Origin: Mesorhizobium sp. Pch-S
GTDB lineage: Bacteria > Pseudomonadota > Alphaproteobacteria > Rhizobiales > Rhizobiaceae
Length of the DNA stretch: 64,000 nt
Reading direction: 5' to 3'
Assembly: GCF_004136315.1 (NCBI RefSeq)
Contig: NZ_CP029562.1
Coordinates: 1,612,001-1,676,000 of the forward strand
How positions within the stretch are numbered: position 1 is the stretch's first letter; the number at the start of each line of letters is the position of its first letter. Below the pieces are notes generated by a model. That model was not told the DNA's origin, did no database searches, and saw only the letters and a list, made by a program, of their open reading frames with translations. Positions 22,253 through 31,781 of the stretch are shown piece by piece. A program made the translations under genes and the position numbers.

Positions 22253-22906
22253 TCAGCCGGCGTCGGCCGGTATGAACGCCAAGGCGAGGATGTGGGACGT
22301 GATCGATATCCTCGTGTCGATGCGCCGGCCATTCGCAAGCGTGACCGTGCCAGCCGGCAGATCGACGGCGATGTCCTCGAAACCGAGCACTTCGCCATCG
22401 AGGGGAAAACTCGCCTTGTAGGCTGCTTCCTTGGCCGCGAAAGCGATCCTGCCGGCGATGGCCGGATCGCAGCCGGCCAGCCTATCGCGGGAATTGAGGA
22501 CCACGGGCTCGAGTTCCGGTGGCAAGGGCAGCGCCGGCTCGATGTCGACGCCGACGCTGCGCATGGTTTCACTGCGCGTGGCAACGGCAATCGCGAAGTC
22601 GGCATCATGGGCGATCGACGCGGCCACGCCGGCCGGCCAGACCGGCTCGCCGGCCTTGCCACGTGGAATGGCAGGACCATCATATCCCAGTTGCCGCAGC
22701 AGCCGGCGGGCCAGCAACCGGCCGGCACCGCTGGCGTCGCGCGCGGCCGCTGTCCTGGACTGGATCGTTTCGCTTTCCGCAGGCAGGATGTGGCGTGCGT
22801 CGCCGGTCTCGATGCGGCGGCAGCCGACAAGCAGGCCGGGTGGCGCCAGCATCGCCAGCGCCTGTTCCAGTGCGCTCGCCTGATGCTGCGAAGGCCGGGC
22901 GCTCAT
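22253..22906 (-). CDS. 4'-phosphopantetheinyl transferase (EntD/Sfp superfamily)
   Basis: A 217-residue enzyme that moves the phosphopantetheine arm of CoA onto a carrier-protein serine. The Mg-binding motif appears as VGVDIEPALPLP (about residues 117-128) and the second motif as FAAKEAAYKASFPLDG, both intact; SIAHDADFAIAVA is the family's preceding strand. It lies 11 bases after the GNAT gene in the same leftward operon as a large carrier-domain synthetase, so that synthetase is its likely client. Confidence 0.9.
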   Translation of the reverse strand: MSARPSQHQASALEQALAMLAPPGLLVGCRRIETGDARHILPAESETIQSRTAAARDASGAGRLLARRLLRQLGYDGPAIPRGKAGEPVWPAGVAASIAHDADFAIAVATRSETMRSVGVDIEPALPLPPELEPVVLNSRDRLAGCDPAIAGRIAFAAKEAAYKASFPLDGEVLGFEDIAVDLPAGTVTLANGRRIDTRISITSHILALAFIPADAG

Positions 22907-22917
22907 GATGCCAGGGC

Positions 22918-23376
22918 CTAACGGCGAAGGTCGAGCTCGGCGATCATCTCGCCATCCTCGTCCAGCCCCTGCTCGACAAAGCCGAAAGAGGCGTAGAGCT
23001 GCTTCGCCGCCGTGTTGGCGGGCTCGTAGCAGATCAAGACCTTGCGCACATGCGCCAGGCCCTCGATTTCGCCGAGCGCCGCCGCGATGCCGGCGCGGCC
23101 GAGACCCCTGCCCTGTTCACGGCGATCGATCATGAAGCGATAGATGTTCGCCTCGTCATCGTTGGACGCGTCGTACATCAGGAAGCCGACGACACGGCCG
23201 TCGGCCACGATCGCGCGCGGCACCGCATCGCCGTCCTCGCCGGCCTCCTCGAGCGAGTCGGCGTTGGAGGCGACGAAGTCCTGCTGCCCGGGAAGCAGTT
23301 CGAGGGCAAGGATCGCCCGGCGGTTCCGGTCGCTGACCGGTTCCAGCACCACCGAAACTGCCTTGCCCACAGTCAT
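22918..23376 (-). CDS. GNAT-family N-acetyltransferase
   Basis: A 152-residue acyltransferase with the acetyl-CoA loop MIDRREQGRGLGRAGI (about residues 84-99) and the closing NTAAKQLYASFGFVEQG. The pattern resembles spermidine/aminoglycoside-type GNATs that acetylate amines. Its start overlaps the stop of the NRPS gene by one base (TGATG), so it is translated with it. That position suggests it modifies the synthetase substrate or product, or protects the host; this is inference. Confidence 0.88.
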   Translation of the reverse strand: MTVGKAVSVVLEPVSDRNRRAILALELLPGQQDFVASNADSLEEAGEDGDAVPRAIVADGRVVGFLMYDASNDDEANIYRFMIDRREQGRGLGRAGIAAALGEIEGLAHVRKVLICYEPANTAAKQLYASFGFVEQGLDEDGEMIAELDLRR

Positions 23377-25913
23377 CAGGCGCGGACCTTCTGCTCGACG
23401 ATCGGCGTGACGATGCCGTGCAGCTTGGCCGGATTGCCGCGCCAGACGGTGTTGGGTTCCAGCACCTCGCCCTTCATGACGAAGCAGTCGACGTCGGCGA
23501 CCGAGCCTTCGCCCATCACCACGGCGTAGTGCACGAAGGCTGCCGGCGCCAGCGTGCAGCCATTGCCGATGCGGATGTAGTCGGACTTGAAGGCGCCCTC
23601 TTCAAGCGAGTGCGCCTGGATCACGCAGCTTTCATTGAGCGTGACGTCGTCGCCGATCTCGACCAGCGAGCGCTCGGTGATGATGGAGCCACCGTCATAG
23701 AGCCGCTTGCCGACCTTGACGCCGACCGCGCGCATGATCAGCGGCTTGAACGGCGTGCCGGCGAACAGGCGCATGATCGGCGAATCCGACAGTTTCCAGT
23801 GTCGTTCATGGCGCCAGAAGATCGGATCGTAGATCGTCGCCATGCGCGGCTTCAGGCGCCGGAAGCCAAGGCTGATGCGCTCCAGGAAGATGTAGAACGG
23901 GATGGCGATCGCCGAGGTCAGGAACACCGCCACGAACAGCGCCGTCTGGCCCCATTCGGTGTAGTAGTTCAGCGCCCGGTCCCAGATCGCAAGCGTCAGG
24001 AACAGGATCAGCCACTGCGAGAACACGAACAGCACGGCAGAAACGCCATTGTGCAGGTTCTTGAGCGGCAGGCGGCGCTTGCGTTCCTCGTCGGAAATCA
24101 ACCCGAGCAATTCCTTGTCGCGGTTGACGATGCGCGGGATCTCGAAGGGCGGCGAGCCGAGCAGGCCGACATTCTCGCGGACCGGGCCGTCGACCGGCAC
24201 ATGCACCTTGGTGCCGAGCAGCACGTTGTAGCCGGTGCGCGAATCCGGCGAGTAGATGATGTTGTTGCCGAAGAAGTTGCGGTCGCCGACCCGCGTGTGC
24301 TCGAGGCGGAACGAGTTGGCCGACTTCTGCATGTTGATCATGAACAGGCCGTCGGAAACCATGGTCTCCGAGCCGATCTCGCTGAGCTGCGGGTTTTCGT
24401 GGCGCTGGTTGGTGCCGAAATTGGAGCCGGTCTGCTCGACCTTGTTCAGCTTCCAGCCGATGGCGCGCAGGTAATAGACGATCGCCGATGAATCGCCGAA
24501 CAGCGTGTTGAGCAGGCGTACATTGCTGACCATCTCCAGCATCGACTGCAGCCAGTAGTGGAAGCCGTAGAGCGAATAGTTGCGGCCCGGCTTCAGGAAC
24601 AGGTTGAACAGGCGCGGCAGGATGGCTGCCAGAAGCACGCCGCCGACGATGAAGCCGGCGACCGTGACCGTGGTGCCGATGGCAACGATGCCGATGGTCT
24701 CCTGGTAGTCGTCGCTGACGTTTTCCCAGAAGGTGTGGAACAAAAGCGGGAACGGCGTGACGATGGTGAACAGGATGACGAGCTGGATCAGCTCGTAGAT
24801 GACGCGGCGCGCGCTGGAGATCGGCACGTTGGAAATCGGCGAATAGTCGGCTGTCGTCGGAATGGCCGGCGAGCCGTGCCAGTGTTCACCGGCCGGGATC
24901 GCCTGGCCGCGATGCAGCGACGAGGCATGGCCGAGCTGCGAGCCGGATTCCATGCGGGTGTCGATATCCAGCGTGGAACCGACGCCGACAAAGGCGTTGT
25001 CGCCGATATGAACCGGCCCGGTGTGGATGTAGCCGGCCTGGGCGCGGAAGCCCAGCACGCTGGATTCCTTGCGCAGGATGGTGTTGTCGCCGATGGTGAT
25101 CAGGTCGGTGCAGACCGGCACGGAACGGCACTCGATCACCGTGCGGTCGCCGAGGCGTGCGCCGAGCAGGCGCAGGTAGAGGCTGTAGAGCGGGCTGCCG
25201 CGGAACAGCACCACCGGCGCGGTACGGATCAGCGTCTTGACGACCCAGAAACGGTAATAGCGCCAGCCCCAGATCGGGAAGGTCTCGGCTTTCCAGCGGC
25301 CGACCAGCACCCATTTCAGGACAACGGCCGCACCCGTCAGGCCGAAGAACATGCCGGCCGACAGGATGACGCAGCGCATGTAAAGCGTGACCGGATCGTC
25401 GAGCGCGTCATAGACCCAGTCGAGGCCGTCGTTGAAAGCCCACAGCGACAGGTAGCTGTAGGCGGCATAGAACACCAGCTGCAGGAAGCCGGTGCCCCAG
25501 TACTGCAGGTTGGTGGCCTTGTGGGTGAGCATCGGCTCGTTGGCCGCGACCGCCACTTCCGCCGGCGCCCGCAGGTGATCCGCCAATTTGGCGACCGTCG
25601 GATGCAGGTAGATGTCGCGCATCGACGCCGTCGACCAGTCCGGCCTGCCACGGACGCGGGCGCAGAAACGGGCCATGAGCAGGGAGTTGGCGCCGAGATC
25701 GTCGAAGAAATGGTCCTCGATCGAGACACCTTCGAACTTCAGGATATCGGCCAGCGTCTCGGCGAGGAACTTCTCGTCGTCGTTGCGGTAGTCGACCATC
25801 GCATTGCCGGCGGTGACGCGAACGCTGGTCGGCTTGGGCAGCTTGCGCAGGTCGGCCTTGTTGGAGACCGTCATCGGGATCGCGTCCAGGCGTTCCAGAT
25901 AGGCCGGCACCAT
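23376..25913 (-). CDS. Pls/PosA-type non-ribosomal peptide synthetase, C-terminal part (downstream of frameshift)
   Basis: This 845-residue frame continues the adenylation gene at 25934. It starts with the end of the A domain (VPAYLERLDAIP, then the A10 region SNKADLRKLPKP with its catalytic-type Lys), then a carrier domain with the phosphopantetheine serine in DDLGANSLLMARF. The rest is the terminal region of the Pls/PosA family: about six membrane helices with two blocks of left-handed beta-helix (hexapeptide) repeats such as IGDNTILRKESSVLGF and IGNGCTLAPAAFVHY. The apparent Met start is not a real start; the frame joins the upstream half near 25950. In epsilon-poly-lysine synthetase, this membrane region links free amino acids iteratively. 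Confidence 0.87.
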   Translation of the reverse strand: MVPAYLERLDAIPMTVSNKADLRKLPKPTSVRVTAGNAMVDYRNDDEKFLAETLADILKFEGVSIEDHFFDDLGANSLLMARFCARVRGRPDWSTASMRDIYLHPTVAKLADHLRAPAEVAVAANEPMLTHKATNLQYWGTGFLQLVFYAAYSYLSLWAFNDGLDWVYDALDDPVTLYMRCVILSAGMFFGLTGAAVVLKWVLVGRWKAETFPIWGWRYYRFWVVKTLIRTAPVVLFRGSPLYSLYLRLLGARLGDRTVIECRSVPVCTDLITIGDNTILRKESSVLGFRAQAGYIHTGPVHIGDNAFVGVGSTLDIDTRMESGSQLGHASSLHRGQAIPAGEHWHGSPAIPTTADYSPISNVPISSARRVIYELIQLVILFTIVTPFPLLFHTFWENVSDDYQETIGIVAIGTTVTVAGFIVGGVLLAAILPRLFNLFLKPGRNYSLYGFHYWLQSMLEMVSNVRLLNTLFGDSSAIVYYLRAIGWKLNKVEQTGSNFGTNQRHENPQLSEIGSETMVSDGLFMINMQKSANSFRLEHTRVGDRNFFGNNIIYSPDSRTGYNVLLGTKVHVPVDGPVRENVGLLGSPPFEIPRIVNRDKELLGLISDEERKRRLPLKNLHNGVSAVLFVFSQWLILFLTLAIWDRALNYYTEWGQTALFVAVFLTSAIAIPFYIFLERISLGFRRLKPRMATIYDPIFWRHERHWKLSDSPIMRLFAGTPFKPLIMRAVGVKVGKRLYDGGSIITERSLVEIGDDVTLNESCVIQAHSLEEGAFKSDYIRIGNGCTLAPAAFVHYAVVMGEGSVADVDCFVMKGEVLEPNTVWRGNPAKLHGIVTPIVEQKVRA

Positions 25914-25933
25914 GTAGTCGGGCAGGCGCCGCT

Positions 25934-27448
<1,515 letters not shown>

Positions 27449-27837
27449 TTTGGATATCGACGTTTCGGGCCTGAGGTTCGCGCGGGACGCGCTCTGGAGA
27501 CGTGCCTTAACCGGTTGTTGCCATTACAACTATGACACTGGGGACCGAAGGCAATTCTGTCTGTGGATTGCGTACGGCAGCGCCCTCTGGTGCTGAATAA
27601 AGGCAAATCTATGCCATAATCGCATGGAGCACGCGAAACCCGTCCATCGGGGGCGGCAGCCATATCCATGCCCTTGCCACAATTTGGTTTAAACGCTCTC
27701 CGGGTTTTGCCGCGCCAGATGGATCTGCGTGGCTTCGTCCATGTTTCGTCAGCTTAACTTATTGTTTTGTCGCAGGTTCTCATCGCAAAGCCGTCGGTTG
27801 CCTTTGCGTGGCTTGCCCAGGGGTTGCAACAAAGATC
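27449..27837. other. Divergent promoter region between the NRPS operon and lpiA
   Basis: No gene. It is relatively AT-rich for this genome (27600-27780). A small inverted repeat GTTGT (27514-27518) / ACAAC (27526-27530) lies 65 bases before the NRPS start. No convincing -35/-10 pair could be fixed for lpiA, although CTTAACTTATTG near 27755 is a possible AT-rich core. Confidence 0.5.
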
Positions 27838-30456
27838 ATGAATGACGCCGACGCTCAGGTCGACGAGCAGAATCTCGGCAGCGGTCTCTCACGAATAGTT
27901 GACCGCATCGTGGAGCCGCGCGTGCTCGGGCCGATCGTCGGCGCGGTCGCCGTCGCCATCGCATTCCTGTTCATCCACGAGATCGGCGGCAAGATCCGAC
28001 TCAACCACATCATCGACGCCGTCGCCTCAACGTCCCTTGCGACGGTGGCACCGGCGCTTGCCTTCACGCTGGTCAGCCTGATGGCGATGGCGCTGTACGA
28101 CGTCATGGCGATCCGGCACATCGCGCCCGACAAGGTGCCGACCCGTCTTGCCCTGTTCGCGGGCTTTGTCGGCTACGGTTTTTCGAACGCGATCGGCTTC
28201 CACGTCTTCGTCGGCGGCCCCGTCCGCTACCGCATCTACCAGTCGGTCGGGCTGGACGCCGCCGATGTCGGCAGGATCGTCGGCGTCTCCTTCCTCACCT
28301 TCTGGGGCGGCCTGCTCACCATCGTCGGCATGGCGATGCTGTTCGATCCGGTAGGCGTGCCGGCGCTCAGCCTGGTTTCGCCGGTCGACGACCGCATCAT
28401 CGGCGGCGGCATCCTGGCCGGTCTCGCGCTCGTGCTGTTGTGGCTGGCACGCGGGCGGCGGCAGGTCTCCGTGCTCGGCTGGACATTCCCGTTCCCTTCG
28501 GCGCGCAGCGCGGCGGTGCAGATCCTCATCGGCGCGGTCGACATCGGCGCCGCGGCGGCGGCACTCTACGTGCTGCTGCCGGCCGACGTCGCGCCGGCAT
28601 TCACCGTGTTCCTCGCGCTGTTCGCCCTTGCGATCATCGCCACCGTGGTCAGCCATGCGCCCGGCGGCCTCGGCGTGCTGGAAGCGACGATCCTGTTCGG
28701 GCTCGGCGTCGGCGCCCGGCCCGACGTCATCGCGGCACTCGTCGTCTTCCGCATCGTCTACTACCTGTTCCCGCTGGCACTGGCGGCGCTGGCCCTGCTC
28801 GTGTTCGAAATCTACCGTGTCCGCAGCACGGTTTCGAACGTGGCGGGCCGAACGCTGGCGCTGACCCGGCACATCGTGCCGCCGATCAGCGCGACGCTGG
28901 TCTTCGCCGGCGGACTGGTGCTGCTGTTTTCAGGCTCGGTTCCGGCCGTCAGCGATCGCACCGACTGGCTGAGCGATATTCTTCCCCTGCCCTTTGCCGA
29001 AGCGTCGCATCTTCTGGCCAGCGTCACCGGCCTGCTGCTCATCATCATCGCACGCGGCCTTTATCGCCGCATCGCGCTGGCACGCTTCGCGGCCATCGTC
29101 CTGCTTCTGACCGGCGCCGTCTTCTCGGTGCTGAAGGGGCTGGACTGGGAAGAAGCGATCGTGCTGGTGGCGGTGGCAGGTGCTCTGTTCATCTACAGGG
29201 ATGCCTTCTACCGCAAGGGTGACTGGCGCTCGTTCCGGCTCGACACAACCTGGATCGGACTGCTGTCCATCGTCGTGACCGCCAGCATCATCGTCGGACT
29301 GCTGGCCTACCGCCATGTCGAATACCAGTCTTCGCTGTGGTGGGAGTTCGCCTGGGACGGCGACGCGCCGCGCTTCCTGCGCGCCACCATGGCCATGGCC
29401 ATCGTCGCCGCCGCACTGGCCATCGACACGGTCATCAACCGCCCCGCCCATCCCAAAAGCCCAGGCCGGGTCGCCGTGCCGGATGCGGTTCGACGCATTC
29501 TCGAGACGTCTTCCGGCACGGAGCCATGCGTCGCCCTGCTTGGCGACAAATCCTTCATGATCTCGCCTTGCGAGAAAGCCTTCCTGATGTACGCGCGATC
29601 CGGCAACAGCTGGGTGACGATGGGAGATCCGGTCGGCGATGCCCAGGCCGGCAGGACGCTGATCTGGCGTTTCGCGGAAGCCGCTGACCAGGCCGGTGCG
29701 CGCGCCGTGTTCTATTCGATCCAGCCGGAATTCCTGACCCACTATCTCGACATGAGCCTGGCCATCCTGAAGATCGGCGAAGTGGCGCGCGTCGGATTGA
29801 CCGATTTTTCGCTCGAAGGCGCCATCCGCCAGCCGCTCCGCTACGCCTATGGCAAATCCGGCCGCGAAGGGCTCACCTTCTCGGTCATCCCCAAGGCCGA
29901 CGTCGCCAGCGTCCTGCCCGAACTGCGTGCGGTCTCCGACGAGTGGATGGGCAAGAAGCACGGCAGCGAGAAGGGTTTTTCGCTCGGCTATTTCGACGAC
30001 GACTACATGCGCGAATTCGACTGCGCCGTGCTGCGCAAGGGCGACGAGATCGTCGCCTTCGCCAATCTGTGGCGCAGCGGCGACGGCGAGGAGCTGTCGG
30101 TCGACCTGATGCGCTACAAACGTGGCGTCTCCAAGATCATGATGGACGCGCTGTTTGCCCACATCCTGCTGCTTGGCAAGGCGGAGGGCTACAAATGGTT
30201 CAACCTGGGGGCAGCGCCGCTGTCCGGGCTCGCCGACCATCCGCTCGCCTCGACCTGGAACCGCATCGGCACCTTCATCTACAAGCGCGGCGATGAAATC
30301 TACAATTTCGAAGGCCTGCGCGCCTTCAAGCAGAAATTCGACCCGGTGTGGACGCCGCAATATCTGGCCTGCCCCGGGGGACTGGCCATGCCGCAGATCC
30401 TGCTCGATATTACGACCTTGATTTCCGGGAACCCGATCCGAATCTTCAAACGATGA
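27838..30456 (+). CDS. lpiA: Lysyl-phosphatidylglycerol synthase/flippase (LpiA/MprF)
   Basis: An 872-residue two-part membrane protein. The first ~540 residues carry about 14 hydrophobic helices (flippase domain, e.g. GFSNAIGFHVFVGGPVRYRI and SHAPGGLGVLEATILFGLG). The last ~320 residues are the cytosolic DUF2156 transferase, with MISPCEKAFLMYARSGNSWV, GDPVGDA and KWFNLGAAPLSGL, which adds lysine from lysyl-tRNA to phosphatidylglycerol. The product lowers the negative surface charge and helps against cationic peptides and acid. I prefer ATG 27838 over a GTG at 27808. Its stop overlaps the acvB start (ATGA), the conserved lpiA-acvB pair of rhizobia and Agrobacterium. Confidence 0.93.
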   Translation: MNDADAQVDEQNLGSGLSRIVDRIVEPRVLGPIVGAVAVAIAFLFIHEIGGKIRLNHIIDAVASTSLATVAPALAFTLVSLMAMALYDVMAIRHIAPDKVPTRLALFAGFVGYGFSNAIGFHVFVGGPVRYRIYQSVGLDAADVGRIVGVSFLTFWGGLLTIVGMAMLFDPVGVPALSLVSPVDDRIIGGGILAGLALVLLWLARGRRQVSVLGWTFPFPSARSAAVQILIGAVDIGAAAAALYVLLPADVAPAFTVFLALFALAIIATVVSHAPGGLGVLEATILFGLGVGARPDVIAALVVFRIVYYLFPLALAALALLVFEIYRVRSTVSNVAGRTLALTRHIVPPISATLVFAGGLVLLFSGSVPAVSDRTDWLSDILPLPFAEASHLLASVTGLLLIIIARGLYRRIALARFAAIVLLLTGAVFSVLKGLDWEEAIVLVAVAGALFIYRDAFYRKGDWRSFRLDTTWIGLLSIVVTASIIVGLLAYRHVEYQSSLWWEFAWDGDAPRFLRATMAMAIVAAALAIDTVINRPAHPKSPGRVAVPDAVRRILETSSGTEPCVALLGDKSFMISPCEKAFLMYARSGNSWVTMGDPVGDAQAGRTLIWRFAEAADQAGARAVFYSIQPEFLTHYLDMSLAILKIGEVARVGLTDFSLEGAIRQPLRYAYGKSGREGLTFSVIPKADVASVLPELRAVSDEWMGKKHGSEKGFSLGYFDDDYMREFDCAVLRKGDEIVAFANLWRSGDGEELSVDLMRYKRGVSKIMMDALFAHILLLGKAEGYKWFNLGAAPLSGLADHPLASTWNRIGTFIYKRGDEIYNFEGLRAFKQKFDPVWTPQYLACPGGLAMPQILLDITTLISGNPIRIFKR

Positions 30457-31781
30457 AAATCCTCGCCTCCGTCCTCTCCCTGCTGATCTCCTTCTGCTTT
30501 ATCGGGCTCGCCACCGCGCAATCCGATGCGCCGGCGTCGACGCTTTCCGTCGAGCGGTTGCAGAATGTGCGGCTGCTGCCCGCGAAAGGCGACGCCAAGG
30601 CGATGGTGGTCTATTTCTCCGACCGCAGCGGGTGGAGCCCTGCGGACGACGCGACGGCGTCCGCACTCAGCGACGACGGCAATGTCGTGCTCGGCGTCGA
30701 TCTTGCCGCCTATGCCCGGGAGCTGGACAAGGCGGACGGTGTCTGCCTCTACGTCGTCGGCGAGATCACCGACCTTGCCCAGACCGCGCAACGCCAGCTC
30801 AACATCCAGACCTATCTGCCGCCGATCGTTGCCGGCACCGGCGAAGGTGCGACGTTCGCCTATGCGGCGCTCGCCGATGCGCCGGCCAACACGCTGGGCG
30901 GGGCCGTCGCTTCCGGCTTTGCCAACCGGCTGACGCTGCGGCTGCCGTTCTGCCCCGGCTCGACGGCGAGCAAGACCGCCGACGGCAAGGCCTACAGCTA
31001 TGCCTTCGACAAGGCGATGCCGGAAGCGGCGAGCCTGTTCGTCGCCGCCGACACGCTGGATGCGTTCCGCACACAGGCCGCGCAGCAGTCCAACATCACG
31101 GTGGAGGCGCTCGACAGCGACAACGCCGCCACGCAGCTGGTCGGCACTGTCTCCGCGCTGGTCGATGCGAGCTCGCCGTTCGGCAAGCTGCCCGCCATCG
31201 ACCTGCCGTCGACGACGCCGCCCAAGGCGGTCGCCATCTTCATTTCGGGTGACGGCGGCTGGCGCGACATCGACAAGACCATGGGCGAATGGCTGTCGAC
31301 GCAAGGCATTCATGTCGTCGGGCTGGATGCGCTGCATTATTTCTGGTCGAAGCGCACGCCGCAGGAGCTGGCCGCCGACATCACCACGCTGGTCAAGGAT
31401 GCCGACCCGCAGGCGAAGCTGCCGGTGATGCTGATCGGCTATTCCTTCGGTGCGGACACGATCCCCTTCGCCTATCCGCTGCTCTCGAAGGAGCTGCAGG
31501 ACCGGACCAAGGTCCTCGGGCTGATGGCGCCGAGCCTTTCCACCTCGATGCAGGTCACCATCTCCGGTTGGCTCGGCATCGACGACAGCGGCTATCCGGT
31601 GCCGCCCGCGATCGCCGCCCTGCCGAAGGACAAGGTGCTGTGCATCTACGGCAAGGAAGACGACGAGGGCGGCTGCGAGGACCCGGCCGTGAAGGACATC
31701 ACCAAGATCGAGACCGATGGCGGCCATCATTTCGACGGCGAGTACACCGACATTGCAAAGCGGTTCCTCGACAAGCTCTGA
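30453..31781 (+). CDS. acvB: AcvB/VirJ-family periplasmic hydrolase
   Basis: A 442-residue exported protein with a signal peptide (MKILASVLSLLISFCFIGLA, cut near TA|QS). The second half is the VirJ alpha/beta-hydrolase domain: AIFISGDGGWRDIDKTMGEW, then the nucleophile elbow GYSFGA with Ser331, and the late GGHHFDGEY holding the likely His. In Agrobacterium, AcvB has been shown to hydrolyse lysyl-phosphatidylglycerol made by the partner LpiA, so the pair tunes the cationic lipid level. It overlaps lpiA by four bases. Confidence 0.92.
   Translation: MKILASVLSLLISFCFIGLATAQSDAPASTLSVERLQNVRLLPAKGDAKAMVVYFSDRSGWSPADDATASALSDDGNVVLGVDLAAYARELDKADGVCLYVVGEITDLAQTAQRQLNIQTYLPPIVAGTGEGATFAYAALADAPANTLGGAVASGFANRLTLRLPFCPGSTASKTADGKAYSYAFDKAMPEAASLFVAADTLDAFRTQAAQQSNITVEALDSDNAATQLVGTVSALVDASSPFGKLPAIDLPSTTPPKAVAIFISGDGGWRDIDKTMGEWLSTQGIHVVGLDALHYFWSKRTPQELAADITTLVKDADPQAKLPVMLIGYSFGADTIPFAYPLLSKELQDRTKVLGLMAPSLSTSMQVTISGWLGIDDSGYPVPPAIAALPKDKVLCIYGKEDDEGGCEDPAVKDITKIETDGGHHFDGEYTDIAKRFLDKL

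Follow-up and report, generated by a model that had tools for sequence, protein, structure and literature searches.

A rhizobial branch of Pls/PosA-type synthetases, putatively specific for a short diamino acid, beside lpiA-acvB in Mesorhizobium sp. Pch-S

In Mesorhizobium sp. Pch-S, a gene row encoding a Pls/PosA-type non-ribosomal peptide synthetase, a GNAT acetyltransferase and a phosphopantetheinyl transferase (PPTase) stands back to back with lpiA-acvB, and the question is whether the two units belong together. The original prediction, made from the 64,000 nucleotides analysed here as a whole (the window), proposed that they share a theme of cationic envelope modification and are co-regulated from the gap between them. 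Our own reading, to which we give a probability of roughly 0.7, is that these are two independent back-to-back units, a rhizobial synthetase that makes a polycation from a short diamino acid and an ordinary lpiA-acvB pair, which are adjacent by chance.

All genes named in the original prediction are present, as judged from Pfam and NCBIfam profile searches and the list of open reading frames, and the predicted operon of synthetase, GNAT and PPTase is borne out. On the minus strand, from 27448 down to 22253, an adenylation ORF, a carrier/terminal ORF, the GNAT gene and the PPTase gene follow one another in an operon-like row. The first synthetase piece (25934..27448, 504 aa) carries the adenylation domain, matching TIGR01733 with 431 bits (cut-off 317) and PF00501 with E 1.3e-84; the second (23376..25913, 845 aa) holds the end of the adenylation domain (an A10-type motif with its lysine), a carrier domain (PF00550, E 4.5e-8) and a membrane/hexapeptide terminal domain scoring 815.2 bits on TIGR02353 (cut-off 423.1). 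The synthetase stop and the start of the GNAT acetyltransferase (22918..23376, 152 aa; PF00583, E 1.3e-11) overlap by one base at 23376, and the row ends with a Sfp/PptT-like 4'-phosphopantetheinyl transferase (22253..22906, 217 aa) recognized by PF17837 (E 3.6e-16) and PF01648 (E 1.9e-6), its 83.5 bits on NF050105 lying below the cut-off of 365. On the plus strand, the LpiA/MprF lysyl-phosphatidylglycerol synthase (27838..30456; NF033480, 851.7 bits, cut-off 600; PF09924, E 3.3e-82) was given the ATG at 27838 as its start, which is conserved in three relatives (L001, L056 and L057), within an ORF that reaches back to a GTG at 27808. The gene for an AcvB-type lysyl-PG hydrolase with a signal-peptide-like start (30453..31781, plus strand; VirJ domain PF06057, 227.5 bits, E 1.6e-67) follows directly, with a 4-base overlap read from the translation; its start at 30453 was placed by eye within an ORF reaching a GTG at 30348. 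The divergent units are separated by 389 bases (27449..27837), as bounded by this lpiA start. The genome is a single contig of 6.62 Mb. Among the loci found, Mesorhizobium loti LU (L001) is the closest relative that bears a name, at 97% in the carrier/terminal part.

Assignment of the synthetase to the predicted enzyme family is well founded: TIGR02353, named 'Pls/PosA family non-ribosomal peptide synthetase' by NCBI, is matched with 815 bits, and an adenylation domain and a carrier domain with its serine (TIGR01733, PF00501, PF00550) lie upstream of the terminal domain. The carrier serine is present in the window translation and in 99/99 aligned relatives. Hydropathy of the terminal domain resolves six segments, overlapping or separate, in three groups, the family feature being six helices in three pairs. 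A search of solved structures matched the adenylation domain to that of Pls from Streptomyces albulus (PDB 7wew, E 3.3e-71); at E up to 1e-3 this search returned carrier-region and short hexapeptide matches and no whole terminal domain, and it is informative for adenylation-domain kinship alone.

The synthetase is present as had been noted, but it is not one reading frame here, which the original prediction had only hinted at in speaking of an 'intact homologue'. The two pieces lie in different frames, the first ending at 25934 and the second starting at 25913, and in the ORF list and the alignment with M. loti LU the frames part within 25934..25980 (minus strand), where the window has a 1-base gap at about 25953. 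The final adenylation motif and its lysine, missing from the adenylation ORF, are encoded beyond the break on the second ORF. In M. loti LU the synthetase is a single frame of 1424 aa, and the single polypeptide of the Pls/PosA family is therefore found in that strain and not in the window. Being split, the window copy as sequenced is probably inactive, by recent mutation or by sequencing error. The dN/dS ratio between the window and M. loti LU is 0.054 before the break and 0.056 after it, the lowest of six stretches compared (LpiA 0.111, GNAT 0.145, AcvB 0.206, PPTase 0.221; the LpiA and AcvB values come from the longer ORFs starting at 27808 and 30348 and include about 10 and 35 codons before the likely starts), and such low and equal values on both sides argue for a break that is recent or for a sequence error. 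A sequencing or assembly error, with the gene whole and active in the living strain, has close to an even chance. Besides the dN/dS values, it is favoured by the kept frames of the carrier serine, the PPTase and the GNAT, and by the finding that the remaining indels inside genes relative to M. loti LU (22253-31781) are multiples of three, three further 1-base gaps falling in the intergenic gap (27806 and 27488) and at the PPTase stop (22254); however, the surrounding 9.5 kb is otherwise free of broken genes, and the genome is in one contig. That the split is functional, with an adenylation protein and a carrier/terminal protein cooperating, appears very unlikely. Both pieces have low dN/dS, a downstream ATG is present at 25913, and two-protein forms do exist in the family, with separate adenylation and terminal genes in L124 and carrier-terminal proteins that have no adenylation domain in their ORF in L081, L088, L115 and L125. 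However, the position of the last adenylation motif with its lysine on the second piece is unlike a clean domain division, and judging from ORF lengths none of the 58 relatives with the same code type is split here; for eight of these (L038-L041, L046-L049) the locus begins inside the adenylation domain, downstream of the usual start.

For the substrate, code positions were taken from the PosA residues given in the available text of PMC10522769. The pocket in the window is formed by D244, F245, E248, A287, L307, G309, T331, V339 and T340 (DFEALGTVT) on the first piece and by K on the second, which gives the adenylation code DFEALGTVTK, a code that was not found in the available text of the same paper. 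The offset between PosA positions 217, 218, 221, 260, 280, 304, 312 and 313 and the window is constant at 27, in agreement with the reading of the motifs. Asp and Glu stand at code positions 1 and 3 (D244, E248), as in diamino-acid pockets, and such an acidic pocket points to a diamino acid substrate; read against PMC10522769, the polycation that had been predicted as the product is likely. According to the portions of that source at hand, Phe at position 2 marks poly-diaminopropionate and poly-diaminobutyrate (poly-Dap/Dab) synthetases, Met poly-ornithine synthetases and Ala poly-lysine synthetases. The window enzyme has Phe, and so neither the Ala of epsilon-poly-lysine synthetases nor the Met of PosA. 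Synthesis of epsilon-poly-lysine in the manner of Streptomyces Pls, the known relative named in the original prediction, would be in keeping with the common family and the acidic pocket, but is quite improbable given the published position-2 rule, and the Ala codes (DAES..) sit in distant branches (L064, L104, L105, L114). The features of ectB-linked poly-diaminobutyrate synthetases are likewise lacking, as position 6 is Gly and not Ser and there is no EctB-like gene near the operon; the best match to the Skermanella EctB in the Pch-S genome has 34% identity. Positions 6-9, G-T-V-T in the window, resemble G-T-V-S in PosA, which takes ornithine, and position 2 alone is therefore insufficient to settle the substrate.

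Genes for precursor supply were also considered, Dat and SbnA each being sought in 61 Mesorhizobium genomes. Dat was above cut-off in neither the Pch-S nor the M. loti LU genome and showed no association with the synthetase in Mesorhizobium (20/37 vs 15/24, Fisher p 0.60), and SbnA was above cut-off in none of the 61 genomes, Pch-S included. Consequently no dedicated supply of diaminobutyrate or diaminopropionate is seen in the Pch-S genome; the absence and lack of association of Dat count against diaminobutyrate, and the absence of SbnA counts against diaminopropionate. The best reading of the code is a putative substrate among diaminobutyrate, ornithine and diaminopropionate, and not lysine. 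By judgement, not computation, ornithine is the tentative first choice and diaminobutyrate a possible second, diaminopropionate is unlikely, some other compound less likely than that, and lysine improbable.

The relatives of the synthetase place this code in a wider context. The code table omits five of 104 loci, namely second copies of L001 and L032 (L055 and L075), L086, which has an in-frame stop and an adjoining EctB-like gene, L101 (3379 aa) and L079 (846 aa, no adenylation domain found); 99 were entered and codes were obtained for 96. DFEALG-, DFEAMG- and DFECMG-type codes (the DFEAxG set) occur in 58 loci, hosted by Mesorhizobium, Rhizobium, Shinella, Neorhizobium, Phyllobacterium, Aureimonas, Pleomorphomonas, Rhodoplanes and others. 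A PPTase gene lies within 1 kb on the same strand in 55/58 of these rows, a GNAT gene in 47/58 and both together in 45/58 (at 90 bits and 1 kb for these 58 rows, and at 60 bits for the others), and the 58 rows are not independent genomes, since the tree finds the identical pairs L009/L116, L038/L118 and L040/L119. No ectB was found beside any of the 58, eight of which (L038-L041, L046-L049) are cut upstream, where an upstream ectB would be invisible; L118 and L119 show the upstream region of two such genomes. In contrast, an EctB-like transaminase adjoins 11 of the 12 rows with DFExxS codes, the exception being L078 on a Paenarthrobacter plasmid, and none of the 12 has a nearby PPTase. The EctB proteins of L077 (Skermanella) and L085 exceed the TIGR02407 cut-off, and the other nine assignments rest on similarity to L077; ectB is annotated in L077 and L126. 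The other 29 rows, in which L081, L088 and L115 with no adenylation domain in the ORF are counted, have neither ectB (0/29) nor PPTase (0/29). Some ORFs that lack the adenylation domain carry several carrier domains before the terminal domain (four in L088, three in L115, three in L081 and two in L125). In L088 and L115 the adjoining gene encodes a condensation-like stretch, an adenylation domain and a carrier, in L115 also a thioesterase, and in L124 a separate adenylation-domain gene precedes that of the terminal protein. No mention of such an arrangement was found in the available texts.

In a quick maximum likelihood tree of the carrier/terminal part, built from 97 rows (eight loci left out, i.e. 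the five dropped ones plus L081, L088 and L115, and the window added) and rooted at the midpoint, without bootstrap and with a long-branch warning elsewhere, the 59 DFEAxG rows, window included, fall on one side of a branch with SH-aLRT 100. They join six of the DFExxS rows with support 99, and the remaining DFExxS rows come next outside. On a plain reading, and if the root lies outside these groups, the rhizobial clade would derive from a diaminobutyrate-type ancestor by losing ectB and gaining a PPTase and mostly a GNAT, and in the same descent pocket positions 6 and 7 would have changed from S to G and from A/V to T, as in PosA.

The original prediction had suggested a comparison of gene neighbourhoods for conserved linkage to lpiA-acvB. 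LpiA and AcvB occur together in the fetched flank of one of the 37 loci with a close carrier/terminal relative, the one being M. loti LU; flanks are short in five of the 37, with 1573, 3236, 5565 and 7030 bases upstream of the synthetase ORF in L003, L023, L026 and L024, and 7051 bases downstream in L004. In the genome samples, each of which counts the Pch-S genome, the VirJ domain (PF06057) stands for the pair, LpiA itself being tested in the 37 loci and the fetched loci. In the Mesorhizobium sample of 146 genomes, the terminal domain TIGR02353 is over cut-off in 81, a VirJ-domain gene is present in 18 and VirJ and the synthetase occur together in 11, the two genes lying within 10 kb in 2/11 (Pch-S and M. 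loti LU, G028). Among 397 genomes of the order both genes occur, at the E-values applied, in 14 and are linked in three (Pch-S, M. loti LU and G340), and among 385 genomes of the class they occur in four and are linked only in Pch-S. Pooled, 26 unique genomes (11 of Mesorhizobium, including Pch-S and M. loti LU, 12 more from the order sample and three more from the class sample) have a synthetase and a VirJ-domain gene, less than 10 kb apart in three (G000, G028, G340); distance is not defined where the genes are on different contigs (G007, G010, G072 and several others), and the VirJ match of G072 is a 24-bit fragment. In G340 (L054) the synthetase is of the DLED type and is followed on the same strand, after 267 bases, by an AcvB-like gene with 34% identity; of five genomes of this genus examined, four of them with a synthetase, only G340 has this adjacency. 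Conserved linkage of the synthetase with lpiA-acvB was accordingly rejected, the arrangement in these samples being local to one lineage plus one unrelated case.

The synthetase gene is an accessory, movable trait, as relatives at E up to 1e-60 occur on 21/72,556 plasmid records (seven from Shinella, four from Pseudonocardia, two each from root-nodule Phyllobacterium, Skermanella and Streptomyces, and one each from Aureimonas, Rhizobium, Paenarthrobacter and Arthrobacter), and this fits a chance landing beside lpiA. The closest lpiA relatives that have no adjoining synthetase are L056 (LpiA 93%) and L057 (90%), and these also inform the reading of the 389-base gap. A block upstream of lpiA (27663..27789, plus strand) is kept in L056 and partly in L057: 27667-27997 is 79% identical in L056 (27667-27789 within it, 78%) and 27663-27715 is 90.6% identical in L057. 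A search of the gap against all loci gave no match better than E 0.05 except L001/L055, L056 and L057. Since the block is kept beside lpiA where there is no synthetase, it travels with lpiA and is not owed to the synthetase, which leaves co-regulation from the gap, as it had been proposed, unsupported. A promoter scan of the region gave three sigma-70-like sites against 1.2 expected, and none in the gap, an uninformative outcome. Shared control of both units is not indicated.

Taken as one co-regulated module for cationic envelope modification, the synthetase operon and lpiA-acvB would have in their favour the back-to-back layout in both Pch-S and M. loti LU, the likely basic nature of both products, and the AcvB-like gene directly downstream of the DLED-type synthetase in the unrelated G340. 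This appears improbable, however, as linkage is seen in 1/37 loci and in 2/11, 3/14 and 1/4 of the genomes with both genes, lpiA genes 93% and 90% alike keep their upstream block with no synthetase as neighbour, and in 16/25 close synthetase relatives (M. loti LU counted) it is instead an ECF-sigma-like gene that lies less than 1 kb upstream on the same strand. In L010 (M. hawassense) the ECF-sigma-like protein combines sigma-70 regions 2 and 4 with a SnoaL-like tail. A chemical connection may also be conceived. The phosphatidylglycerol head group offers glycerol hydroxyls. Pls-type synthetases can release their chains as esters of small alcohols, e.g. glycerol, according to the part of PMC9606270 available. 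It would be a long shot that the rhizobial enzyme passes a short polycation to phosphatidylglycerol and so produces a poly-aminoacyl lipid, in effect an extended version of the LpiA product, from which AcvB-type ester hydrolases could strip the chain; such a lipid, if made, would account for the two independent occurrences of an AcvB-like gene next to a synthetase (Pch-S/M. loti LU and L054).

We return to the preferred reading of two independent neighbours. The left unit belongs to the Pls/PosA synthetases of cationic homopolymers, within which it is part of a rhizobial branch. Here the PPTase would load the carrier, the adenylation domain would activate not lysine but a shorter diamino acid such as diaminobutyrate, ornithine or diaminopropionate, and the membrane domain would join the units through their side-chain amines into a short polycation, with the GNAT possibly acetylating the monomer, the chain or the chain end. 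The right unit is an ordinary lpiA-acvB pair, and it looks like the two became neighbours by chance in the lineage of Pch-S and M. loti LU. The pair has the same order, LpiA/MprF followed by AcvB/VirJ, as in Agrobacterium and Sinorhizobium, from which no difference was seen in the available texts (PMC13197417, PMC13135905, PMC2651895).

The left unit can be set beside several known systems. PosA, the delta-poly-L-ornithine synthetase of Acinetobacter baumannii, has the same adenylation, carrier and membrane/hexapeptide terminal domains (PMC10522769, available text) and agrees with the window at code positions 1 (Asp), 3 (Glu), 6 (Gly), 7 (Thr) and 8 (Val), but differs at position 9 (Ser in PosA, Thr in the window) and position 2 (Met and Phe, respectively), and has no obvious co-transcribed neighbours according to the same available text, whereas the window has its own PPTase and GNAT. 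The poly-diaminobutyrate synthetases, with a dat or ectB neighbour (pldA with dat in the available part of PMC8117764; Skermanella L077 and, by similarity, ten further loci), share Phe at position 2 and stand closest to the rhizobial clade in the tree, yet they have Ser instead of Gly at position 6 and ectB in 11/12 rows vs 0/58. Streptomyces albulus Pls has the same architecture, as described in the accessible text of PMC10522769, but Ala at position 2. Synthetases with DLED.. codes, which by that account occur in Rhizobia and Methylobacterium, belong to the same family and are also present in the order, but form a separate branch of 16 rows (support 100) with 22-27% identity in the carrier/terminal part in the seven rows compared; a divergent two-component pair accompanies 5/16 of them.

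Among the literature matches listed, and as far as the available texts go (further sources drawn on being PMC4668381, PMC12283262 and PMC7179176), the Pls/PosA family appears in print from Streptomyces, coryneforms, a fungus and Acinetobacter. No Pls/PosA-type homopolymer from a rhizobium was among these matches, which does not establish its absence in print, and none of the ten papers listed for that combination contains both acvB and 'non-ribosomal peptide synthetase'. The idea of a connection with lpiA-acvB is not worth following without more evidence. The interest of the locus rests in the rhizobial synthetase clade, the PPTase and GNAT that go with it and its pocket code, and the correlation between position 6 of the pocket (Ser or Gly) and the partner gene (ectB, or PPTase and mostly GNAT) offers a direct and cheap test of substrate switching in this family.

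Four loci carry a Pls/PosA terminal domain behind a carrier array, each scoring over the cut-off of TIGR02353, the model for this domain (L088, 4950-8300; L115, 4983-8120; L081, 5233-8493; L125, 5113-7848). In these ORFs two to four carrier domains precede the terminal domain and an A domain is absent, and the gene adjoining those of L088 and L115 encodes a condensation-like stretch, an A domain and a carrier. The four represent a carrier-array form of the Pls/PosA synthetase. The terminal domain was also observed in an ORF of 3379 aa at locus L101 (G584:C2:557146-572230), which may encode a multi-module synthetase whose end is of the Pls type.

In 16 of the 25 close relatives, the 1 kb upstream of the synthetase contains a gene for an ECF sigma factor that bears a SnoaL-like tail (L010, 7360-8247; similar genes occur in 15 further Mesorhizobium loci). 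No such gene is present there in the window or in L001, the intact M. loti LU locus. Among the synthetases with a DLED-type A-domain pocket code, which form a separate branch, 5/16 rows (L054, L069, L070, L071 and L072) have a two-component pair, a histidine kinase plus a response regulator of the OmpR type, encoded divergently from the synthetase. In L054 (genome G340), an AcvB-like gene, starting from 8035 on the minus strand, is directly downstream of the synthetase; its product is 34% identical to the window AcvB, and no such gene was seen at this position in three other genomes of the same genus (L070-L072).

Between the window and L001, divergence is far greater in the PPTase (window 22253-22906; 72% identity, dN/dS 0.22) than in the neighbouring synthetase (97% identity, dN/dS 0.06). 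The window is not alone in having a damaged synthetase: the copy in L086 (genome G380), adjoined by an EctB-like gene, is also broken, by an in-frame stop.

Synthetases were also observed on plasmids. In those of Pseudonocardia (L122, L123, L124) the A domain is degenerate-looking and a TauD-like dioxygenase follows; L124 additionally has a cysteine-synthase-family gene ~2.5 kb downstream, for which the SbnA model, used in the diaminopropionate-supply search, was the best match, below its cut-off. On Skermanella plasmids (L077, L126) the gene row consists of an annotated ectB, the synthetase, a small protein, an S41 peptidase and a porin, and looks like a unit for a diaminobutyrate polymer and its export.
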